Source: Branchiostoma floridae (lineage: Eukaryota; Chordata; Leptocardii; Amphioxiformes; Branchiostomatidae). From it: 64,000 nt of DNA. The stretch covers positions 20,339,245 to 20,403,244 of the forward strand of contig NC_049982.1 in assembly GCF_000003815.2 (NCBI RefSeq), in the 5' to 3' direction. Of this stretch, positions 15,814-50,139 are shown piece after piece (position 1 is the stretch's first letter; each line of letters begins with the position of its first letter). Under the pieces are notes generated by a model that was given only the letters and a program-made list of their open reading frames with translations, was not told where the DNA came from and made no database searches. A program made the position numbers and the translations under genes.

Positions 15814-18800
15814 ATGGCTCTACTGAATCAGCGACCACACCTGGTGGAGCTTGTGAAGTGTGTAGTGGTGGGGGACAATGCTGTGGGGAAGACACGGCTC
15901 ATATGTGCACGTGCCTGCGCCACACCTATCACTAAGCAGCAGCTGCTGGCCACCCATGTGCCAACCGTGTGGGCCATCGACCAGTACCAGATCTCACCAC
16001 AGGTAAGTGTTATTTAGAATCCTTTTGGATTGTTTAGAGGTGCTTGTCTCCATTCCTATAGCCCTAGGGCCACACACTTGGCACTATAGCTAAGCCACTT
16101 GTAGACATGTATGTATGTCTAATAGTACTGTGGACTTAAAACGCACATAGTTTTTTTGTCAAATATTCTACGAATGTTCTTCTCATTCAAGAATCTACCA
16201 GCAGAATGTGTGATGTTAAAACATTTCAGTGCTGAAGACACTAATTTGGAATTGTAAATCTTCACAGATATTGGAGCGCTCCTATGACATAGTGGACGGT
16301 GTGCATGTGTCTCTGCGCCTGTGGGACACGTTTGGTGATCATGAGAAGGACAGGAGATTTGCCTATGGAAGGTACGACTGGAACAATTTTAGCCCTGACT
16401 GAGTGTTTGATGTGGCTTTCTATGTTTCTATCTAGTAGTAGTTTCATTGTTACTTCTCCCCCAAGAGTCGTATAGCTGTTATTCAGTATCAAGCACAGTA
16501 AGGGNNNNNNNNNNNNNNNNNNNNNNNNNNNNNNNNNNNNNNNNNNNNNNNNNNNNNNNNNNNNNNNNNNNNNNNNNNNNNNNNNNNNNNNNNNNNNNNN
16601 NNNNAGCACAGTAAGGGTTGTATAGCTGTTATTCAGTATCAAGCACAGTAAGGGTTGTATAGCTGTTATTCAGTACCAAGCACAGTAAGGGTTGTATAGC
16701 TGTTATTCAGTACCAAGCACAGTAAGGGTGGTGTAGCTGTGATTCAGTACCAAGCACAGTAAGGGTGGTGTAGCTGTGATTCAATCCCAAGGACAGGAAC
16801 TGTTGTAAAGCTGTGATTAAGTACCAAGGACAGTAAGGGTTGTATAGCTGTGATTCAGTACAAGGACTGTAAGGGTTGTATAGCTATCATTCAGTACCAA
16901 GGACAGTAAGGGTTGTATAGCTGTGATTCAGTACCAAGGACAGTAAGGGTTGTATAGCTGTGATTCAGTACCAAGCACAGTAAGGGTGGTGTGGCTGTGA
17001 TTCAGTACCAAGGACAGTAAGGGTTGATAGCTGTGATTCAATACCAAGGACAGGAACTGTTGTAAAGCTGTGATTAAGTACCAAGGACAGTAAGGGTTGT
17101 ATAGCTGTGATTCAGTACAAGGACTGTAAGGGTTGTATAGCTATCATTCAGTACCAAGGACAGTAAGGGTTGTATAGCTGTGATTCAGTACCAAGGACAG
17201 TAAGGGTTGTATAGCTGTGATTCAGTATCAAGCACAGTAAGGGTTGTGTAGCTGTGATTCAGTACAAGGACTGTAAGGGTTGTATAGCTATTATTCAGTA
17301 CCAAGGACAGTAAGGGTTGATAGCTGTGATTCAGTACAAGGACAGTAAGGGTTGTATAGCTGTGATTCAGTACCAAGGACAGTAAGGGTTGTATAGCTGT
17401 GATTCAGTACCAAGGACAGTAAGGGTTGTATAGCTGTGATTCAGTACCAAGGACAGTAAGGGTTGTATAGCTGTGATTCAGTACCAAGGACAGTAAGGGT
17501 TGTATAGCTGTGATTCAGTACCAAGGACAGTAAGGGTTGTATAGCTGTGATTCAGTACCAAGCACAGTAAGGGTGGTGTAGCTGTGATTCAGTACCAAGC
17601 ACAGTAAGGGTGGTGTAGCTGTGATTCAGTACAAGGACAGTAAGGGTTGATAGCTGTGATTCAGTACAGGGACAGGAAGGGTTGTATAGCTGTGATTCAG
17701 TACAGGGACAGTAAGGGTTGTATAGCTGTGATTCAGTACCAAGCACAGTAAGGGTGGTATAGTCATCATTCAGTACAAGGATAGGAAGGGTGATGTGACT
17801 GTGATTCAGTACAAGGACAGTAAGGGTGGTATAGCCATCATTCAGTACAAGGACAGTAAGGGTTATGTGGCTGTGATTCAGTACTAGGGCTGTTAGGCTG
17901 GTATAATTTTCATTCAGTACCAAGGACAGTAATTATGCTGTAGCTGTCATTCAGTACAAGGGCAGTACGTGTGGTGTAGCAGGACAATAAAGTTGTTGTA
18001 TCTGTCAGTGTGTAGTTTTCGTGTGTCTGTGCATATGGTGTTTTTCCATGTTGCGGCTTCTGTGTACTCGGTTCTTGCTGTCCAAGGAGTGAAGTCTGCT
18101 ATGTCTGGTTACCTTGTGGCAGATATTATTAATCAGGACAGACTGTATTTGATGTATGTTATGCGGCCCATTACATTACGTGCTGTGCACTCAGTTTGTT
18201 CATTTGTTTCCTCTAGTAAATCAACATGTCTGTGTACTTGTGAATTACTATCTATTAGTAAGAATTTTTAATTTTTGGAAGTGGATACTACAGTAGTTAG
18301 CAACTATGACCGACTGTAGCAACTTGCAGCTTTACTGGGAGCTCTACAACACAACAGCTGTTAATGTAAGATAAGCATCTATGAAAGGTTGGCAGTGAGA
18401 ATTTGGTTATAAATTGTGGCAGATGTATGTGACATGTGTAAGCTTGTAACAAGTGTTGATACTTCATGTGCCTGTCATGCATACAAATGATTCCTGTACA
18501 AATCACAGTTGCATATAGCCACCAACCAGATCACAAATGCAACCTAAAACAAATGTATGTACTACTGCTATCAAATTTCCAAATTCATTTTAAACTCTTT
18601 GACTGCAGAAATCAAATATTTGACACATTTATTCTAAAAACTAGCTTATCAGTCAGTTTCACATTGGGTTGGGAGTGAAAGTTAAATAGACGGCAGTAAA
18701 TTATTACAGCAGTTAACATATCATATCACAAAGTTATCATTTCAATAATGCCACACTCAAGTCTCTCCTAGTCACGTTCTGGCATTGTTTGACCTTCCTG

Positions 18801-33100: not shown

Positions 33101-36100
33101 ATACCTCAATTTTTCATCAAAGTAATGAACAAATATGCAAATATACATGTACCAAAACAAAGATTTGAATGTACATGTATTTATATGCTGCTAATACTGC
33201 AGCAGAATGTATTGTATGCGAGAGAGAAAGTAATTACTTCTGACCCTTAAATACAAATCTTACCTTTCTGAACATCTTGGTCCAAGATTTCTTCATATAA
33301 CTGCTTTTGTACAGCTGAGGGGAGGTCTTCAACTTCTGTAGGTGAACAAATATGTGACTTATGAACTGGAATTACACTGAAACCTTTAACACAGGCACAA
33401 CAGGGATAAATGTAATTGGTCTCAAACTGATTTAACTTCATGTCAAGTAAATCCCACTTGGTGGTCTTTCTACACCAGGCATTATGCAATGACCATGCAA
33501 AGATGATGCAATGTACTAGCAGTCTGGCCTGTTTTGAGTGTATTTGGCAGTGGTTTTGTGCATTTTTTTCTGGATACCATGGCAAGATGTCTTTAAAAAT
33601 TGCAGATCTCCAGAAAACATACAAAAACACCACCAAATGCACTCAAATTCAAAACAAGTCAAACTGCTACATCTGCTTGGAAATTGGCAATGGATGACCT
33701 TGTACTAGTTGTAAATGTATATATGCAGGGCTTGCCAGCAATTTTCAAGTTGGACTGGTATTTCTAAGTCTATCATAATAAATTGTTTTGTAGAACTCTG
33801 ACCATGTGCACCAGCTTAGAATCATTCATTGACTGAATATTGGGAGTTTTGTAATGTCCATAATCACACCCACCCACTGTGAGGGGTGACCCTGCGTATA
33901 ATCAAATCAATAAACCATAAACCCATGAAAACACCACATGCCATACAATATGGCTCACCAGATAGGGAAAGCTTTTATGTGTAAGTCCAAGCTATTACTC
34001 AAGCGTTAGCAATGCTGGTGAAAAAGAAAGTATGTACCTCTGAGTCTTGATATTTCTGTTCAGCATAATTTTTTTAATAATCTCAAATTGGATTGATGTC
34101 ACATCAAAACATCTTTAAGTCTTCTCCAACTGACCCCAAGAAGACTTTCTGTTTCTGTAGCCGTTTCCGGTTTTGTTCCACCTTTAGCCTATCAAACTCA
34201 GAATTTTTGCTCCTCCTTTACCCAATCAAAACTTAGATATGGAAATGACGTCATCAATATTGCTCAAAATCGTCTGGTAGATAGGATGTTTGCCTAGGGC
34301 CCCTCATTCTGATCATAGTTGGCGTACGCGTAATGAATGTACGCTTTTTATTCATTTTGCCATGCTCGCCTTTCTTTTTACATAGTAATACGATACGTTA
34401 TAACAATATAAAATAAACTGTAACTACTCATGGTTTAAAATGTACAACAATTAAATGGTGGAGTGTTTTCAGTCTGGCCTTATCCCGTTCCCATGACCGA
34501 CAACACCTATGTTACTATAACGTAAGCTCAAACATTATATAAGATTAAAAAACGCCATCTATAGCCTGAGTATCATCCTCCGTAGTAACCGCTAGCTCAC
34601 GACTTTCCCCTTTTCAGACATGTATGAAACGTTTTCATCTTATGAACAGGGCATCGTACGTTTAACATTCGTTTAACGGTCACCCCGTGTTTGGGCGCAC
34701 CAACGCCAGCACACCGGCTCCAATATTGACGATGTCTGCTGCGCACGGTGTTGGTCAAATTTGTAGAACCTGAATCTCTGGAATCGAGTCTGGACCTGAA
34801 CTTGATCATGAATTTCAGCTTACTAGTAGGTACACAGCACTACTATATGGGCCATCTAAATGCAGTACTTTATATACTATTGTGTGAGTTACAAGCTTGA
34901 CAATAGGCCAAGGGGAAGACTTTCATGAAAATGTTGCCTTTCAGTTTGACATGAGATACAAGACCTGCTCAGCTGAGTATGGCTTGGGCAGGGTTAAGGG
35001 ACAAACCTTACCAACTATATGTATCAAGTAGATTAGAGTGTGATTTACATAATAAACAAAGAAACAGGAAATAAGCTAAGAAATTAATCCAAATCCTACA
35101 CAACCAGCAGAATTATGTCATGATTGTTACATAATGATTCTTAGTCTTACATAAAGATTCTTGTTTTAGTTCAGGTTTGCATTACTCGGATGTATGTAAC
35201 ATATGGCTAGATATGCATAACATTTGCATAACAAATTGGAATGCTACAATGCAAATGGCCATCATCATCATCATCATTTCGGGCACTGACATGGTCAACT
35301 GGTTGAAATCAACAATGAATTCGTAAGATGTAACGTATATGTACAAAAACTATGAAGCTACTATTACATTTCTTGTTATGAACTAACCACTTTAACCACT
35401 TTACAAGATTAAACTATTTAAAGTATTTTTTTGTTACCTGCAGGTAGTGCAAAGGTCACCATCTCAGTCAAGAAGTAGCAGGGGAAGTCTCCTTTCCTCT
35501 GACGCAGACCTCCTGTGACTTCTCGGCGAATGTCCGCAGCACAGTCTGGGCTCACGTGGGATGGGACCCTCTTAACCGCGTGTGAGGCAACTTCTGTGGA
35601 AGTCAGTAACACTGCCAGTAGGTCTTCTCTTTGAAAGCGAATGGCAAGATGGACAAGGGTGTATCCGACATCAAAAGCACTGGGGCGATCTAGGAGTAAA
35701 CACTCGTCGTACGTCAGCTGACGGGCGGGATCACCACCGGAGGATAGAAAGACCTGAACAGGCTGCGGGTCGCCCTCTACCACACCAACGCACGCGTCAA
35801 CCACAGNNNNNNNNNNNNNNNNNNNNNNNNNNNNNNNNNNNNNNNNNNNNNNNNNNNNNNNNNNNNNNNNNNNNNNNNNNNNNNNNNNNNNNNNNNNNNN
35901 NNNNNNGGGCGGGATCACCACCGGAGGATAGAAAGACCTGAACAGGCTGCGGGTCGCCCTCTACCACACCAACGCACGCGTTCAACCACAGCCAGTCTTG
36001 TTGACGCATCCTGTTCCGTATCAGTCGGAGGCGCCGCTCCTCCTGTTGGTTGTTGCCGGCAGACGCAGATGCAGATGCCAGCTCGATTTCGACATTTGCC

Positions 36101-40170: not shown

Positions 40171-41925
40171 ATGGCTGCTGATGCCTTCCTAAAGAATGGG
40201 ATAGTTCCTGACATTGTGGACAATCCCCCAACAGAGACAGCAGCTGTAATGCATTCTGATCTGTACCAATATATTGTTTATATATAGTGATGTTTTAGTA
40301 CCAGTAACCATACCTGATATAGTATCAAGAGTGTTTTAGAACCTCTTTTAAGTTTTATCTAATATGTTATTCAGGTGTTTGCTATGAAATTCTCAGGTTC
40401 ATAGTATCACAATATAATTTCAAACGATGATATGATATTAGTACAAATGTAATTTCATTTTGGGATCTGTGCTTGTTTTGTGAATTTGAGCCTTTGCTCA
40501 GACATGGAAAGCCTATTTTGAGATCTTCCCATTATCACTATTTCAGGTGACATATGAAGGCAACACCATTATTGTTGACTTTGGAAATGAGCTGACCCCA
40601 ACTCAGGTAAATCAAGATATATGCTTAAAAGGTTTTGATCAAAATTTAATTGTAGTCTTAATTGTTAAACAAGTAATCCATAGTTAATCTTGCTTCAGCA
40701 TTTCAATGTGTGATTGCTCTGAAATATAGATACACTAAGTTGAGGAAACTTTCATTTTAAATCTGTTATGTATATCCATGTACCCTAAAACCTGACTGAC
40801 ATTGGTACAATCTATGTAAGCTATTTTAATCAAGCATTTTTCATGATGATTTTCCACTTAAAATTCTGTACTGTTTTAGCAATAGCTAGAGCAGGATGAA
40901 GCCAGTTACAGTTGTATTAACCTTTTCAAAAAATGACTTCTGCACCAGGTGAAGAGCCCTCCCCAAGTGACCTGGGCAGCAGAGGAAGGTTATCTTTACA
41001 CTCTCATCATGACAGGTTAGACCAGTTACAAAGGCCAGATGGCCTGCAAACTTCTATTTCTTCATTCATAAAGTATTCTCCCACCTTCTAATGGTGAAGG
41101 AACTTTCGTAAGACACAGGATTTTTGTTTGGTCAGCACCAAGTAGTAGATACATAAATATTTTAAGTCATTATACATACCTTTCCAGAGCTTTTGACTGT
41201 TTTGTTCTTGCAACAGACCCAGATGCTCCCAATCGGTCCAACCCCAAGTTTCGGGAGTGGCATCACTGGCTTATAGTCAATATCCCAGGGAACGACCTTG
41301 GTCGGGGAGAGGTTCTCACGGACTACATCGGCGCTGCCCCTCCCAAAGAGTCGGGACTCCACCGCTACGTCTTCCTGGTGTATCAGCAGCGGGGGAAACT
41401 GACGTGTAACGAGAGCAGACTGCCTAACGATTCCACAGCAAACAGGTCAGCAGTTCCATACATGTAACATTGAATTGTAGTGTTTGATATTTTTGCCTTT
41501 GCTGGATGGCAAAGATAGGTATGTCTCTAGTCTGTTTGGTCTGCACATTAGTTGTGCTAGGATGTCTTTGTATTTTAGTGTACTTGTTTCTCAAGTACAT
41601 GTTAGACTACACATTCAAGTCTTCACCTCAAAGAATGTTAGGAAATGTTTTCTGATTAATTTTTAAGGTACTTAGCTATGGAACATTGTCTAGCAGCATA
41701 CTGTCGTTATTCATGTAGAAATTACAGTACATTGTGTAACTGTCTGAAAACTTGAAAATATCATGCTGCAATAGTTGTTTGTTAATTCTCTTCCTGTACA
41801 GGGGCAAGTTCAAGACCAAAGTGTTTGCTACCAAGTACAAGCTGGGCAACCCTGTAGCTGGCAACTTTTTCCAAGCTCAATGGGACGACTGGGTTCCCCA
41901 GCTTTATGCAGGCATGAAAAAATAA
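40171..41925 (+). CDS. PEBP1: Phosphatidylethanolamine-binding protein (RKIP)
   Basis: Five coding exons: 40171-40245, 40547-40606, 40949-41015, 41217-41445, 41802-41925, total 184 residues, near the 187 of human PEBP1. It carries the family motifs TDPDAP (split between exons 3 and 4), [23 protein letters not shown] and a C-terminal [14 protein letters not shown] helix. The ligand-pocket residues expected from mammalian PEBP1 (Asp of DPDAP, His of WHH, HRY) are all present. The family is cytosolic, binds phosphatidylethanolamine-like anions and, in vertebrates, restrains RAF1 signalling; that role is assumed by homology. The ATG at 40171 is the first in its exon and gives the usual N-terminus. 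It lies head-to-head with ZRANB1 and is followed convergently by a membrane-anchored paralogue. Confidence 0.93.
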
Positions 41926-42523: not shown

Positions 42524-42845
42524 GCCGGTGCGTAGCACCGGCTATGTATGAGACGGGAGAAGCGGTTGTATGGATGCATGGATCGGTCACTTTAACGAAA
42601 TAGCCCTTCTATACGTGCAATTGCGTAATCGAGCCAGCGTGGCCGAGCGGTCTACAGCACGGTACCTATCTTCCGTAGATTGTAGGTTCGAACCCCACTT
42701 GCTAAATTTTTTTTTCTTTGTTAGACAAATCTCATGTAGTGGTTTTTTAATAGAAGAAAGACCAATTCAGTAATTCGATGTTTAAAAGCTCTTTTTTCGT
42801 GTGATTTTGTTTAACATCCAGGCTTTTTCCAAAATACGCACCGGC
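42524..42845 (+). mobile_element. tRNA-like SINE or fold-back element
   Basis: Positions 42632-42707 resemble a Leu/Ser-type tRNA: an A-box-like TGGCCGAGCGG near 42640 and a B-box GGTTCGAACCC near 42685, properly spaced for RNA polymerase III. The ends that should form the acceptor stem do not pair well, so it is not a normal tRNA gene. The surrounding segment starts with the hairpin GCCGGTGCGTAGCACCGGC (42524-42542), and its first 11 bases recur inverted at 42835-42845. T-rich runs follow the tRNA-like part. It could be a SINE or a non-autonomous transposon that captured a tRNA. Confidence 0.6.
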
Positions 42846-43985: not shown

Positions 43986-44200
43986 CAACGAATGAGTAGA
44001 TTTAACACAGTTGTACAACTAGAAACCCCAAAAGAAAAGAAATTATTTTGTCTCCTAAACAGCTACATGTACATAATTCATTTATGGGTGGTATTTTATA
44101 CCATCAATTAGTTCTCAACAGAATAAGTGTGCTTTGCTTATATTATTGGACCTACAAAGTTAATGCTTAATAACTACTACCTTACTGGTGCTTGTCATGT

Positions 44201-47200
44201 CTAGCCCTGTTTGTTACCCTGTTGTGCAGTACGTTTGTTATTAATATTCCACTGGGAGAGGAACACAATGCCAGCAACAGGGGGAGGGAGACTGTACTTT
44301 GCAGCGAAGTCCTTGGTTTTGAATCTGGCTCTGTAAAAGACAAGTTGTTTGGAACATCACAATAAGTTAAAGTTCTCTGTTGGCAGCATTCATACATTTG
44401 TGTGAACAACCAGAAATTTAGACAAATAGATTTACCATATTAAAACTGACATATTTTTTAAAGTTTTAATCAGAAATGGATTATGTGCAAATCAAAAGGC
44501 TTAGCCTGGAGTCCATCCTTGTGTCTTTTGTCGCTCCCCAAAGTGTAGTCCTTTGGGAAGTGACAACAAGGCTGGACGAGGCTACAAAAGGCCTCTGAGC
44601 ACCATCAAACGTTACAATTATAGCACTGAAGCATTACATATAACCTTTATACAGTTACAATCTACAAGCCTATCATGAGTTTTTTTTCAATGTCTATTTA
44701 AGATTGTCTGAGTCAAGTAATACACAAATTTTGAAAATGACTCAAACCTTTTCTTGTCAGTTTTTTTCATCCTGGGTTCATCAAATTCCAGGCGACGCGG
44801 CTGCTCGAACACCATGATGATGTAACGGTGAAGCCCGGTGTTCCTGTTGGGGCTTGGGGCCAGGTACTCTGCAATAACATCCCCTGTCTCCAAGGGAACC
44901 TGCTCGCCCCCGGGGTTGGCTTCAATGTTCCCAATTATCAGGTGGTAGTACTCTCGAAAGATGGGGTTGGCACGGGAGGGATTGTCCAGACCTGTAAAAA
45001 GCAAGGATGAGTGTGGCCAGGAAGAAAAATACCTCCACCCCTGAGGCGTTGCCAAATAAAACCATCTGCCAACAGAAAAATATTGCAGGCTGTTGTTGAT
45101 GGCAGTTTTGTTTCTTGCTTTGCCAATGGCTTTGCAAGTCAGTTCAATCAAATAAAAGACTCCTAAAGTACAGGCTTAGTACTTAGAAAAGATAATTTCC
45201 TTGCTCCTGTGGGTTGTATAAAGAAGTGTTATTAATTGTTATCTCATCATGTAATATTCCACACGTACTAACCTGTCATGACTAAGGTGTATAGTCGACC
45301 TTGAGTGGTCTGCCACCACAGCCGTGTGGGCATTTCTGTCAACTGAAGAATGTACAAAGGAGAATTACAATTACATGACAAAGTTCTTTATTCAAAATAA
45401 ACAAAAAATCAACGTATAGCAGACGGTCGTGGAAACGTTGGCCGCATGTAAATCGTTGGTCGTGTGTAAAGAATTCTGAGATTTAGTAATTCATCAACCG
45501 TATAAAACTATTCGCGAAGGAAAATGCAATCACATGCACTTCTGGTGAGTATTATTTTCAGATGGCCATCAAGCACTGCAAAGCACATTTTCACGCAACT
45601 AGGCACTTTGATATCAACGCCTTATTGCGAACGGATGACATTATTGGGACAAGCGCGCCTGTAAACTATACAGCTGTCTTGTTAATGGTACGGACAAGAC
45701 CCTTTTCGGCGGTTTGTTCTGTCTGAGCCCGCTTGAACATTCTATAACATCATACATGTAATCGTTTGACAGCCTATGACTATAATGTGAGTTAGCAAAA
45801 AAATGTTGAAGGTTTATGGGTGGGTTGTACATGACTAGACTGCTTATTACACGCATCATGAGTAGTTATGTGTCTGTGTATTATCCATACTTACATCTTG
45901 TGGCTGAACTTCACTCCCGACGTCAACTTTATTCTCAGCAAACCAGACCTAAAAGCAAGACGAAAGCAGAATGACGTCATTATACCACATTTTATGTGTA
46001 TTTTGAATAAAAAAATCTTTAAAAGACAATTATAAGATCTTGCTGCATGTGAAGGTGAAGACGAATACCTGAAGGCGAACCTGAACATTTCGTCCTCACC
46101 ATTAGTTGAGCATGCACATCCCAACAAAAGTGTTGATGCAAGCACCTGTACTGATATGTAAAATGATGTAGGGGATTTTACCTAGCAAATTCTGTAATAC
46201 CTGCTTGTCCTACAGGGTTAGTGAGTGTAGTCTAGCTTGTCTCTGGGCATGATGTGTCTTTTTGTCTGTTCTGGTCTTGTATCAAACGTGCTAAAAACAA
46301 ACGAATACATACTGGTGTATTTGACTTACGTGTAGCAGGGCAGTTGGGGCCTGATCCATAACGTCAGGGATGACTTGGTGGTAGCTTATCATTCCTGCCA
46401 AACGCCCCGTGTCCTTCGGAAAGGCGAGCACGGGCTCAGCCGGCTTCGACGGGTCAACGTACTTGGCGCGCGTCGGTCCTTTGTCAGCGTCAGTGGGCAG
46501 ATTATCTTTTGGTTCTTGGTGTTGGTGTTGTTGTTCGTATAACAGGCGTTGTTGTTGTTGCTCCTCCTGTACATGTTCGTGCTTCGGCGGTTCTTGCAGG
46601 TCGTCCGTTTGCGCTGCCTCATCCACTTCCCCCGTGTCTGTGTCGTCCCCTGCCAGTTCGCCAGGGGCTGGGATGGTTTGCTGAGCTGTGGCATCCTCAG
46701 TCTGCTGCTCGTCGGTCCCTGCCTTCTCCACGGCTTCTTCTACCCCCTCTGTATGATCTGATTTGTAGTCAGCTGCAGACGTTCAGATGAGCCAGATTAC
46801 ATATATATACATATATACATAAATATATACACACGGATTATTCAGTGCTTTTTCGTGCCCCAACAATTACGTTAACGCATACCCATCCCTCCCTTTGCTC
46901 GCCTGTCTCCTCAATGCCACCCCCTCTCCTGAGCCTGTAGGGTGGAAATGGTCCCCTCAGTATTGGTACCGATCTTTAGAAAAAGTGTTTATTGACAAAC
47001 GTCCAAGGCCAAACTACTTGAAAATGATCACTATGTTGGCTGCCCCGTACTACTAGTCAACAAATCAGTGTGGACAACTGCAATAATACATTAAAGGTAG
47101 TACAGGCCTTACGGATTATCACTCTAGAGTCCAATGATTTAAATCAATGTTTTTGCAACAAAAGTTTGCTTGCAAGAATGTCTAAATGGGAGCTACATAT

Positions 47201-47566
47201 ACAAAGTACCTATTTATTATCAGTCGTTACAGATTCTACAAACATGGAAAAGTTTTGGCCTAAAGGAAAGAAAAAGATTCCAAATGGTTTACCGTCATCT
47301 CCAACTTTCCCCTTGGCACGGTGAAGGTTGGTACGTGGTTCGTCTATCAGCAAAGGCCTGAAGCTGATCATCAGGGCTACAATAATGACCAGGAGTGTGG
47401 CCAGGAACACCAGCCAGGCGAGGAAACTGAACTTCTGGTCGGGGTATTCCTTCACCCTGGCCCGACTACTGCGGGGCAGCAGGTCCGAGCCTTTCCTCTG
47501 GTAGATCATCGGAGGGGACCTTATGGAAGGTTTTTGAGGAACGGGACGGCCCTTGCTTCTGTACAT
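44201..47566 (-). CDS. Membrane-anchored PEBP-domain protein, isoform with proximal first exon
   Basis: Six exons on the minus strand: 47566-47293, 46772-46330, 45948-45895, 45342-45273, 44991-44748, 44330-44201, total 404 residues. A basic, Pro-rich N-terminus is followed by one transmembrane helix (about 46-69) without a cleavage-site look, so a type II signal anchor with the rest outside the cytosol is likely. Exon 2 encodes an acidic, Gln/His-rich stalk (EEQQQQRLLYEQQHQHQEP) and the start of the PEBP fold (YHQVIPDVMDQAP). Exons 3-6 complete it: LYTLVMT, FREYYHLIIGN, GLHRYIIMVFEQ, PPVAGIVFLSQWN. The canonical DPDAP is changed to GLDNP and WHH to YYH, so two pocket positions differ while the second Asp, the last His and HRY remain. 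The closest relatives are PEBP-family proteins; secreted PEBP4 is the nearest vertebrate analogue by location, but orthology is unproven. Confidence 0.85.
44502..44584. repeat. Fold-back repeat in the last intron of the membrane PEBP gene
   Basis: TAGCCTGGAGTCCATCCTTG on the left pairs with CAAGGCTGGACGAGGCTA on the right, and CCCAAAG pairs with CTTTGGG inside, giving arms of about 38-42 bases with small indels. Confidence 0.55.
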
Positions 47567-49268
47567 AAGACGCGAGCTGAGGGAACTACTAGTCTTTCCT
47601 GGCGGTGCACAACTCTTGGTCGTACCGTATGTAGTAGCAGGATGAGTAAGAAACTCTATTAAAGGCAGACGGAGCTTGCGAACGAGATGCTTAAGCCAAG
47701 AAGGAACACTGACCTTCTACGTCTAGATCACAAAATCTTACGAATGGTACGTGGCTGTCACCAGGTGGCCACGTCTTTTCTGTAGCGTTTGTTAATGCTA
47801 TGCAGGACGTGGCAAAAGCGGATATGCATTTGCATGCTCACATGAGCTATATCAGTATGGCTGAATGTTGATGGTAAAACATTGAGGAGACGGATGCACC
47901 TGTTTATATAGACCCACGCATATGGATAAGGGGCTGAAAAAAACGTCGTGTACTTGCGTTGATCTTGTCACCCAAATCATCCCAGTTTACACTTTTCTAC
48001 ATTTCGTTTTTTGTTTGTTATACAATTATCTTTGTCCATGAGATTATGTTTTCATCGACGTTTTTTTTTTATCTATCGACATCAAAAAGTTATGATTGTA
48101 TAACTTCTTTGAAATGAAGCACTGTCCTGGCATCCAAACCTATCACAGCAGCCGAGTCTATTTCATACTCTTCGCAAATAGGAATAAGACTAGACGCTGA
48201 TGAAGTTCAAGCCTTCAGCTGATTTCTTCAAGGACTCTTAGTCGTAATATCGAAGGTCTGAAAGATACAGTCGGGTACCTGCTATGTCAGTGTCAGTTCA
48301 ACCACACAGGGAAATGGTCTGAAACTTTATTTACAAACACGAGTTTCACAACGGACAAACAAAGGAAGAAAATTATATTATGTTGGTCTTGATCAAAAGT
48401 GTACAGTGGAGACAAAATTATGGGAAGCATGAGATGACGCGCCATGTCTTGATATACAAGCAGTGCTAAATTCATATCTCACATGAAGCTACTCAAATAT
48501 GTTCCACACGAGGTTTTGCTACGTTTGTGTCGATATTCTTATGCTGCCATCCGAAACAATAGTAAGCAGAAAATGGTAACATAAAATCTATCAATATTGC
48601 GTGTGTCACTGTCCCCATGGTAACTAGGCGTCACTCCACTGTTACAAGGCGTCACCCGCACGATGAGCAGGCGTCTTCCCCAGGGTTACCATGCGTCACC
48701 CACACGGTTACCAGGCGTCGCCCCACGGTTACCAGGCGTCGCCCCTGCGGTTACCACGGCGCTTGTTCTGGCCTTTCCGCCTCGACTGTCCCGTCTTCCC
48801 TTTCGCTATAGCCTCGGCGTCTTGAGACCCTGCCATGTAATATATAGGTGCACAACATTCTACTGGAAGTTGCAGGTATTAAAATGCCTCATCATGCCAT
48901 ATGTCTATGTTTGGTGAAAGCTTTTTTGTCAAAAACTTGCTAACTTGCCAACTTCACTGTCTCATCCTACGCTACGTGATATTTGAAGTTTTAGTTTTGA
49001 ATTAGCATTAATATTTCTCAGAACGAAATCTCATGTTTGAAGTAACTGGTAATCAGTTCAGTTCATCCTCGGAGAGGTGACACCAGCGTCAAATAGCACC
49101 CAATATCGACTTAATCGGCATTTAAGTCTTTGTGTGGATCATAATGATTCATTATAGCTACGTACATTTGTATTTGCTAGAGTACATTACTTCTGCGTTT
49201 CTTTCGTTGGTTGATAAAGAAATGAATGATCACTCCACAACTTCAGAAAAACGGTGATCCGGACTCAC
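47567..49268. other. Intron between the two alternative first exons
   Basis: Holds a 22-bp minisatellite at 48617-48757 and no supported exon. It should contain the promoter for the proximal first exon near 47.6-47.8 kb, but I recognise no clear core element. Confidence 0.4.
48617..48757 (+). repeat. 22-bp GC-rich minisatellite
   Basis: About seven tandem units of CGGTTACCAGGCGTCGCCCC with variation, in an otherwise AT-rich intron. The last three units are most alike. The open frames through it are a by-product of the repeat. Confidence 0.8.
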
Positions 49269-49482
49269 CAGTTTTCGTGGTATTTTCCCCGGCGTTTAAA
49301 ACCTCCTTTTTGACTGGTTGTTCCTCATGGAACAGCGGCCTCAGGCTGACGGTTAAAACAATGCTGATAATGACGAAAACTAGCAGAGTCAGAAACCATG
49401 ACAGGAAAATGTTCTTCCTGTCGTCTGGGAAGGGTTCCACTCTGGACCGAGTCCGCTGGAACCCTGGCGGCTTACGATACAT
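49269..49482 (-). CDS. Alternative first exon of the membrane PEBP gene
   Basis: A minus-strand open segment starts at ATG 49482 and ends at donor ACTG|GTGAGT, 49269. It encodes 71 residues plus one base: MYRKPPGFQR, more basic residues, a transmembrane helix at about 25-47, then SLRPLF. The exon at 47566-47293 has the same plan (MYR start, basic tail, helix, SFRPLL) and the same end phase, so both can splice in frame to the exon starting at 46772. With this exon the protein would be 384 residues. No separate set of PEBP exons lies between 47566 and 49269, so an alternative promoter and first exon is more likely than a second gene. TATATA near 49566 could be its TATA element. Confidence 0.7.
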
Positions 49483-50139
49483 CGGGACTCAAAATCTGCT
49501 GTTGATGCTGGGCTAAAATATTTCTCCTGTAACGTTAAAATCACTGCCGCCAATACTGCAGTTTGTATATAAACCGGATGTAAACGGACTATCAGAGTAA
49601 ATAAAGTTGTTTACCTGAGCGTCACAAGTACACGGATGTGTATAAGAACGACATCCATCTCCAAGCAGATATTGGGAGTCAAAATCATGACGTTCACCTA
49701 GCTAGCTGTCTGTTTGTGTCACGATTTTTGGCTCCCAACACCTGACACCGCTCAATAAACATTGTGAAGGTGATGAGGGCATATTCTAAGTCAAAGCAAG
49801 GTTTTACGTCCGATGTTCAAAGTGACAGATCATTAATCATGAAGAAGAAAGAAACAATGGTATGCAGGGAAATAGGGTTCTCTTTTGTTGAATTGTTTTA
49901 ACTTCAATGTCATGCCCACATCTAAGGGCCTATACAGCCAATTTTCACTGACACACTTAACATTTTATACTTTTACAAACCATATTATGAACTATAAAGA
50001 GGTTTACCTCTTTTCAGCCACACTGTAGTAACATAGAAGTGTTCCACCAGCGCTGTCTCAGAAGGATTTTGCGTGTTTGATGGTTTCATCATGTCTCCGA
50101 CATAAGCGTGTTCCAACAGACAGAAACAACGAACATTGA
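49483..50139. other. Upstream flank of the distal first exon
   Basis: No exon or domain recognised. TAACGTTA occurs near 49529. Confidence 0.4.

Follow-up and report, generated by a model that had tools for sequence, protein, structure and literature searches.

Two candidate membrane anchors for one PEBP gene: paralogous first exons in the lancelet Branchiostoma floridae

Members of the PEBP family are normally soluble or secreted, and have been studied in three roles: as regulators of kinases in soluble form, as florigens and as secreted proteins. PEBP1 is soluble, carries DPDAP, which along with GxHR names a motif of the ligand site, and ends in a DDYVP.LY-type C-terminus. At the UGT1A locus and in the clustered protocadherins, an array of duplicated first exons shares one set of downstream exons. 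ECE-1a to d, in the account given in PMC2567069, come from one gene with alternative promoters and share a C-terminal extracellular or luminal domain, but differ in N-terminal cytoplasmic region and location. Mammalian PEBP4 is described as known or predicted to be secreted, in the part of a review that concerns it (PMC8793217). Here we describe TM-PEBP, a putative transmembrane PEBP gene with two first exons, A and B, in a 64,000-nucleotide (nt) stretch of B. floridae DNA (the window; C4:20339245-20403244, in a genome of 513,431,437 bases and 431 contigs). Positions are those of the window unless prefixed by a contig (C4, C6 or C19), and gene structure was read, and exon use predicted, from genomic DNA alone.

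One PEBP body and two first exons

The body of TM-PEBP (exons 2-6; Table 1) reads as an open frame across introns with GT-AG ends, whose donors are in phases 0, 0, 1 and 2, and matches the PF01161 profile at 39.1 bits (curated cut-off 24; E = 1.1e-9). Among 26 PDB sequences its top match is PEBP1 (1bd9, which we take to be the human protein; E = 1.2e-30). The ligand region has GLDNP in place of DPDAP, and retains GLHRY and the second histidine of REYYH. The C-terminus is WNINNKRTAQQGNKQG, and the DDWVPxLY end of the neighbouring PEBP1-like gene is not present. The stalk in exon 2 carries a net charge of −20 over its first 112 amino acids (aa), and the cysteine count is 0 in both the A and the B form. 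The predicted gene body is of the PEBP1 type, free of cysteine and equipped with an acidic stalk.

Both first exons have phase-1 donors (ACG/GTAAAC in A and CTG/GTGAGT in B, the slash marking the splice point), in the phase of the one exon 2 acceptor at 46772 (CTGCAG/C). Joined to it, either exon gives a single open frame to the TAG at 44200, of 404 aa (A) or 384 aa (B). The original prediction had given both exons a MYR start, a basic tail, a hydrophobic helix, S.RPL and a phase-1 GT donor fitting 46772, and its coordinates proved exact for both. The best 19-residue stretch has a Kyte-Doolittle mean of 3.02 in A and 2.88 in B. The tails have net charges of +9 and +4, respectively, with +2 in the 15 residues nearest the membrane in both, and the next 15 residues have a charge of 0. 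By hydropathy prediction, each exon thus has the single N-terminal hydrophobic helix, positive side in, of a type II signal anchor. This charge distribution favours an N-in/C-out topology and fits the extracellular PEBP domain that had been proposed, for which charge is the one basis. Both tails contain R-x-R motifs, a kind of motif that can hold type II proteins in the endoplasmic reticulum, and an N-glycosylation sequon (NTT) lies just past the membrane in B alone. A filter for anchor exons (ATG, at least 60 open codons, a 19-residue Kyte-Doolittle mean of at least 2.2, and a phase-1 GTRAG donor downstream), applied to the window, selected one place on the minus strand, exon B, and two starts in one frame on the plus strand (7315 and 7333); A fails it because its donor is GTAAA.

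The two exons are related to each other. A protein alignment, proposed with the original prediction, has 17 of 43 residues identical and a local score of 85, beyond every shuffle (0/5000 full shuffles, maximum 48; 0/5000 shuffles keeping the composition of tail, helix and end, maximum 78). It is solid from R.RV..(Y/F)PD through FL.W and the helix to S.RPL; MAFFT carries it back to the MY start with gaps, less surely. Within the window, tblastn with A finds B at E = 5.7e-7 (next 2.4), and B finds A at 5.1e-7 (next 0.032). In the whole genome A has three matches (itself, B at E = 0.0027, then 3.5) and B has four (itself, A at E = 0.0021, then 0.54 and 1.26), so that at E < 0.5 each finds only itself and the other. 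As each exon is the other's best genome match besides itself, the first-exon duplication that had been claimed is borne out. The likeness in DNA is confined to the exon (z = 7.7, against 0.5 in the downstream and −0.4 in the upstream flank), and identity over 43 codons is 51, 70 and 47% at the three codon positions. Both observations point to protein-level selection and not to recent copying, and since third positions are just 47% identical, the duplication is old. A duplicate due to assembly or haplotype was rejected: only 17/43 residues are shared, the flanking sequences bear no relation to each other, and 46300-49700 showed no second copy (40 of 110 candidates scored). Thus, at the level of sequence, an old duplication of the anchor exon in a membrane PEBP gene is well supported.

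The duplicated exons would serve a single body. A genome search with the PEBP body (13 of 13 candidates scored) gave 10 matches: the five TM-PEBP exons, the PEBP1-like neighbour and four loci elsewhere. Among these, that of TM-PEBP is the only cysteine-free, stalk-bearing PEBP1-type body, in line with the earlier claim of one body; the phase match that had been noted is supported as well. Between A and B, where a second body had been said to be lacking, a search of the window with the PEBP body (to E = 10) found nothing but a plus-strand match at E = 7.7. Gene anatomy, phase fit, exon paralogy and the one body have direct support.

Proposed use of exon B

We consider it probable that a single type II PEBP ectodomain receives either of two anchors and tails through alternative first exons. 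After an ancient first-exon duplication, each copy would initiate its own transcript. One starting at B would need a downstream phase-1 acceptor; 46772 fits and would give the full protein, the donor of B passing A because a first exon has no acceptor. In the resulting type II membrane PEBP, a basic cytosolic tail would be followed by a signal-anchor helix and a long acidic stalk, with the PEBP domain facing the cell exterior or the lumen. One ectodomain would have two anchors, with a tail of 48 residues from A or of 24 residues, plus the sequon, from B, and the helix would differ too. Two promoters, the use of B, the topology and a role in sorting are what we infer. Tails and first exons would probably set cell type or expression and membrane address, as they do for the ECE-1 isoforms in the account cited above (PMC2567069).

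An in-frame TGA lies 9 nt before the ATG of B, so B looks like a first coding exon. In simulations of free drift (4000 runs per level, starting from B, with substitutions but no indels), a drift of 0.48 changes per site, which by an arithmetic estimate is about half of the third-position divergence, left start, frame, helix and GT all in place in 0.3% of runs, and drifts of 0.7 and of 0.95 did so in 0/4000. These results bear on the alternative that B is a relic, left behind when a former tandem TM-PEBP gene lost all but its first exon, and is now unused or transcribed only as noise. Tandem duplication followed by loss of the body would be a natural origin for B, and its coding score is only modest. 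However, B still has its start and open frame, its helix and basic tail, and a strong donor of the correct phase, at a divergence where free drift keeps start, frame, helix and GT in about 0.3% of runs, and the body search showed no PEBP remnant on the minus strand between B and A; we regard a relic as unlikely.

Synonymous codon choice is coding-like in both exons (B, +8.8 bits, GC content at third positions (GC3) 0.61; A, +21.1 bits, GC3 0.68; noncoding GC 0.40), and the codon score of B, 11.8 bits, is higher than the 90% quantile of noncoding open stretches (8.7; n = 48). Coding scores were trained on 1760 codons, including a lysine-rich linker, or on 1109 codons excluding it. Among GT sites, the donor of B scores at the 96th percentile and that of A at the 88th (donor and acceptor matrices of 8 sites each, all from the window). 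TATA-like boxes lie upstream of both exons (Table 1); their pattern, TATATAMA, was picked after the sequence was seen and has 16 occurrences on the window's minus strand, and the box at 47910 is separated from the start of A by four ATGs.

Several results weigh against use of B with the shared body. With less drift, the survival of the features of B tells less: they are retained in 7.4% of runs with 0.2 changes per site and in 2.3% with 0.3. Its codon score is below the maximum of the noncoding stretches (20.0; n = 48) and is exceeded by one of its own antisense frames (14.2 bits). Both start codons have C at −3. Finally, the acceptor at 46772 reaches the 73rd percentile of minus-strand AG sites with the 8-acceptor matrix, and AG sites nearer B (48862, 47933 and 47259) score better.

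Such sites would allow B to belong to a separate short transcript that encodes an anchor-only peptide and ends in a small exon, placed upstream of A or directly downstream of it. Upstream of A, candidate acceptors are 48862, which opens a basic extension of 44 codons, and 48829, which opens one of 33; both extensions end in DAW, and AATAAA follows at 48331. Downstream, 47259 (16 codons) is followed by AATAAA at 47218. By the acceptor matrix, 48862 ranks at the 95th percentile and 48829 no higher than the 73rd. Their extensions reach +12.0 and +17.3 bits, with synonymous parts of +4.5 and +8.0, 47259 is, at 9.1, the top AG in 44200-49240 outside the acceptors of the gene model, and AATAAA signals are present. 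Yet about 5 equally strong sites are expected per 1.7 kb (by arithmetic, from 3854 AG sites per 64 kb), AATAAA or ATTAAA occurs 8 times in 6.5 kb, and the extension enters a degenerate GC-rich 22-nt tandem array between exons B and A (48612-48761), which may raise its score. On balance a short transcript seems to us distinctly improbable.

Alternatively, B could be spliced into an extended exon A, in which case the protein would have two hydrophobic helices. Upstream of its start, A has an open frame as far as 47716, and two acceptors, 47655 and 47598, are in phase 1; they score at the 67th and 57th percentile, though this is little below 46772. The shared MYR start of A and B is as expected of two alternatives, and the extra codons resemble noncoding sequence (−4.9 bits over 29 codons, GC3 0.34; −2.3 over 10 codons, GC3 0.50, synonymous part +1.2). 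Because the bridging codons look noncoding, the two-helix form is less likely, and we would give such serial use very little credence.

Judged by sequence, use of both anchors, each with the common ectodomain, is likely. More tentatively, the lancelet may have duplicated only the anchor exon of a membrane PEBP with an altered pocket and a flexible acidic stalk, and two promoters might place the protein in different cells or membranes.

Other PEBP loci and the remainder of the window

Table 1. Positions of TM-PEBP exons, TATA-like boxes and the PEBP1-like neighbour in the window
Feature	Positions	Strand	Remarks
Exon 1A	47293-47566	minus	274 nt, 91 codons + 1 nt; begins MYRSKG; tail 48 aa, hydrophobic helix, SFRPL
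Exon 1B	49269-49482	minus	214 nt, 71 codons + 1 nt; begins MYRKPP; tail 24 aa, hydrophobic helix, SLRPL, sequon NTT
Exon 2	46330-46772	minus	Acidic Q/E/D-rich stalk and start of PEBP domain; takes phase 1
Exon 3	45895-45948	minus	PEBP domain
Exon 4	45273-45342	minus	PEBP domain
Exon 5	44748-44991	minus	PEBP core with GLDNPSR, REYYH, GLHRY
Exon 6	44200-44330	minus	End of PEBP domain, stop TAG; without the neighbour's C-terminal DDWVPxLY
TATA-like TATATACA	49564-49571	minus	89 nt upstream of B start codon; weak evidence
TATA-like TATATAAA	47903-47910	minus	344 nt upstream of A start codon; weak evidence
PEBP1-like gene	40171-41925	plus	184 aa; tail-to-tail with TM-PEBP
PEBP1-like gene, exons	40171-40245, 40547-40606, 40949-41015, 41217-41445, 41802-41925	plus	

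Intron phases 0, 0, 1 and 2 are common to the PEBP1-like neighbour and the TM-PEBP body, and because all four agree, we regard the two genes as inverted paralogues. In a tree of nine rows, 5/6 of whose inner branches are unresolved and for which the bootstrap of one run is unsettled, TM-PEBP falls on the PEBP1 side, on a long branch (1.3). It is split at 100/99 from the PEBP4-like rows, which are two partial exon pieces, vertebrate PEBP4 not being among the rows.

The Pfam profile lists further exons at C4:21.19 Mb and C6:3.42 Mb, presumably PEBP4-like given what we take to be PEBP4 motifs. RHOBTB2, we believe, lies beside PEBP4 in human, which had prompted the idea that TM-PEBP is the PEBP4 orthologue. 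This was rejected: the PEBP4-like exons sit elsewhere in the lancelet genome, and the tree gives no support. Those on C4 (C4:21194637-21196193) are separated by about 0.8 Mb from the window's RhoBTB-like gene (15.8-23 kb), possibly as an old linkage. Human PEBP4 is placed at 8p21.3 in one report's statement of its map position (PMC10770328).

None of the four PEBP loci elsewhere that the body search found had a match to an A- or B-like exon, and around four other PEBP loci (L018-L025), with about 7 to 12 kb on each side, there was no A or B match at E < 0.2, nor do the whole-genome searches with A and B list any at these places. The locus-level search covered matches up to E = 0.5 outside the loci of TM-PEBP itself; matches of A at E = 0.29 in L002/L012 and at 0.39-0.42 in L006/L022 were taken as chance. 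At L011 (C6:13022216-13025812), PEBP occupies a single uninterrupted frame (1294-2136, 280 aa) just downstream of two WAP frames (523-909 and 1042-1293), and is probably a secreted WAP-PEBP, perhaps of retrogene origin. At L012 (C19:17043460-17046981), a PEBP frame with a long lysine-rich linker (2493-1450, 347 aa) follows a PAN frame (3096-2797), and is likely another extracellular PEBP. That these single-frame genes are copies of spliced TM-PEBP mRNA was rejected, as they are closer to the PEBP1-like neighbour (63% and 51% identity for C6 and C19, respectively). Being closer to the neighbour, adjoining WAP or PAN frames, and without an anchor exon, they are uninformative on A or B.

The rest of the window holds CUB and LDLa frames (plus strand, 1.7-4 kb) and a BTB-domain frame (plus strand, 19.8-20.8 kb) that by eye belongs to the RhoBTB-like gene; the GTPase-like frame of that gene, at 15.8 kb, matched nothing in Pfam. 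Between the frames of this gene, a 37-nt tandem array of about 37 copies (16608-17967) adjoins a 100-N gap (16505-16604). A RanBP zinc-finger/AnkUBD gene on the minus strand (35.4-36.9 kb), which we take to be ZRANB1-like, is interrupted by a second 100-N gap (35807-35906) with identical coding text (CVGVVEGDPQPVQVFLSSGGDPA) on both sides, which suggests overlapping contigs left unmerged. A stretch at 42630-42705 is tRNA-like by eye (GTGGCCGAGCGGTCT...GGTTCGAACCCC), perhaps a tRNA-derived short interspersed nuclear element; ARAGORN made no call there. About 38 nt on the 3' side of exon B (49053-49090) are a fragment of a dispersed repeat, with 39 further genome matches listed at 88-100% identity (40 of 110 candidates scored). 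Elsewhere in the genome, a lancelet-derived fluorescent protein has 69 matches at E = 0.01 or better, with the closest exons 79-88% identical, on C4, C17, C14 and C3, which marks the animal as a lancelet. In viral contigs there were 6 pattern matches and 0 relatives.

Comparison with known systems

TM-PEBP has the same domain and exon phases as PEBP1/RKIP, but differs from it in having GLDNP, an anchor and a stalk, and in being without the PEBP1 C-terminal end. The first exons of UGT1A and the protocadherins encode large parts of the ectodomain, whereas those of TM-PEBP, in two copies, encode only tail, anchor and a short linker. If the proposed use is true, a membrane-fixed PEBP with exchangeable anchors would show that a basal chordate employs the fold as a module tethered at the surface or in the lumen. 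The locus would then also offer a compact and clear example of a duplicated anchor exon, with one ectodomain and two tails. Like PEBP4 as that review describes it (PMC8793217), the TM-PEBP domain would lie outside the cytosol; unlike PEBP4, TM-PEBP falls on the PEBP1 side of the tree, and the lancelet has PEBP4-like exons at C4:21.19 Mb and C6:3.42 Mb.

The original prediction held a membrane-tethered PEBP with swappable anchors to be undescribed. Our search of the open-access literature found no membrane PEBP, PEBP signal anchor, PEBP with an alternative first exon or relevant work on an amphioxus PEBP, which agrees with this as far as the family goes; the principle of alternative first exons, however, is known from ECE-1, as PMC2567069 presents it. 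What would be new here is the PEBP family and the swap of the helix itself, swapping first exons as such being already known in other genes. As in that account of ECE-1, the first exons of TM-PEBP, known here from genomic DNA alone, would vary the N-terminus of one ectodomain. In contrast to ECE-1 as described there, they are paralogous, each with its own predicted transmembrane helix, and the ectodomain they would share is a PEBP.
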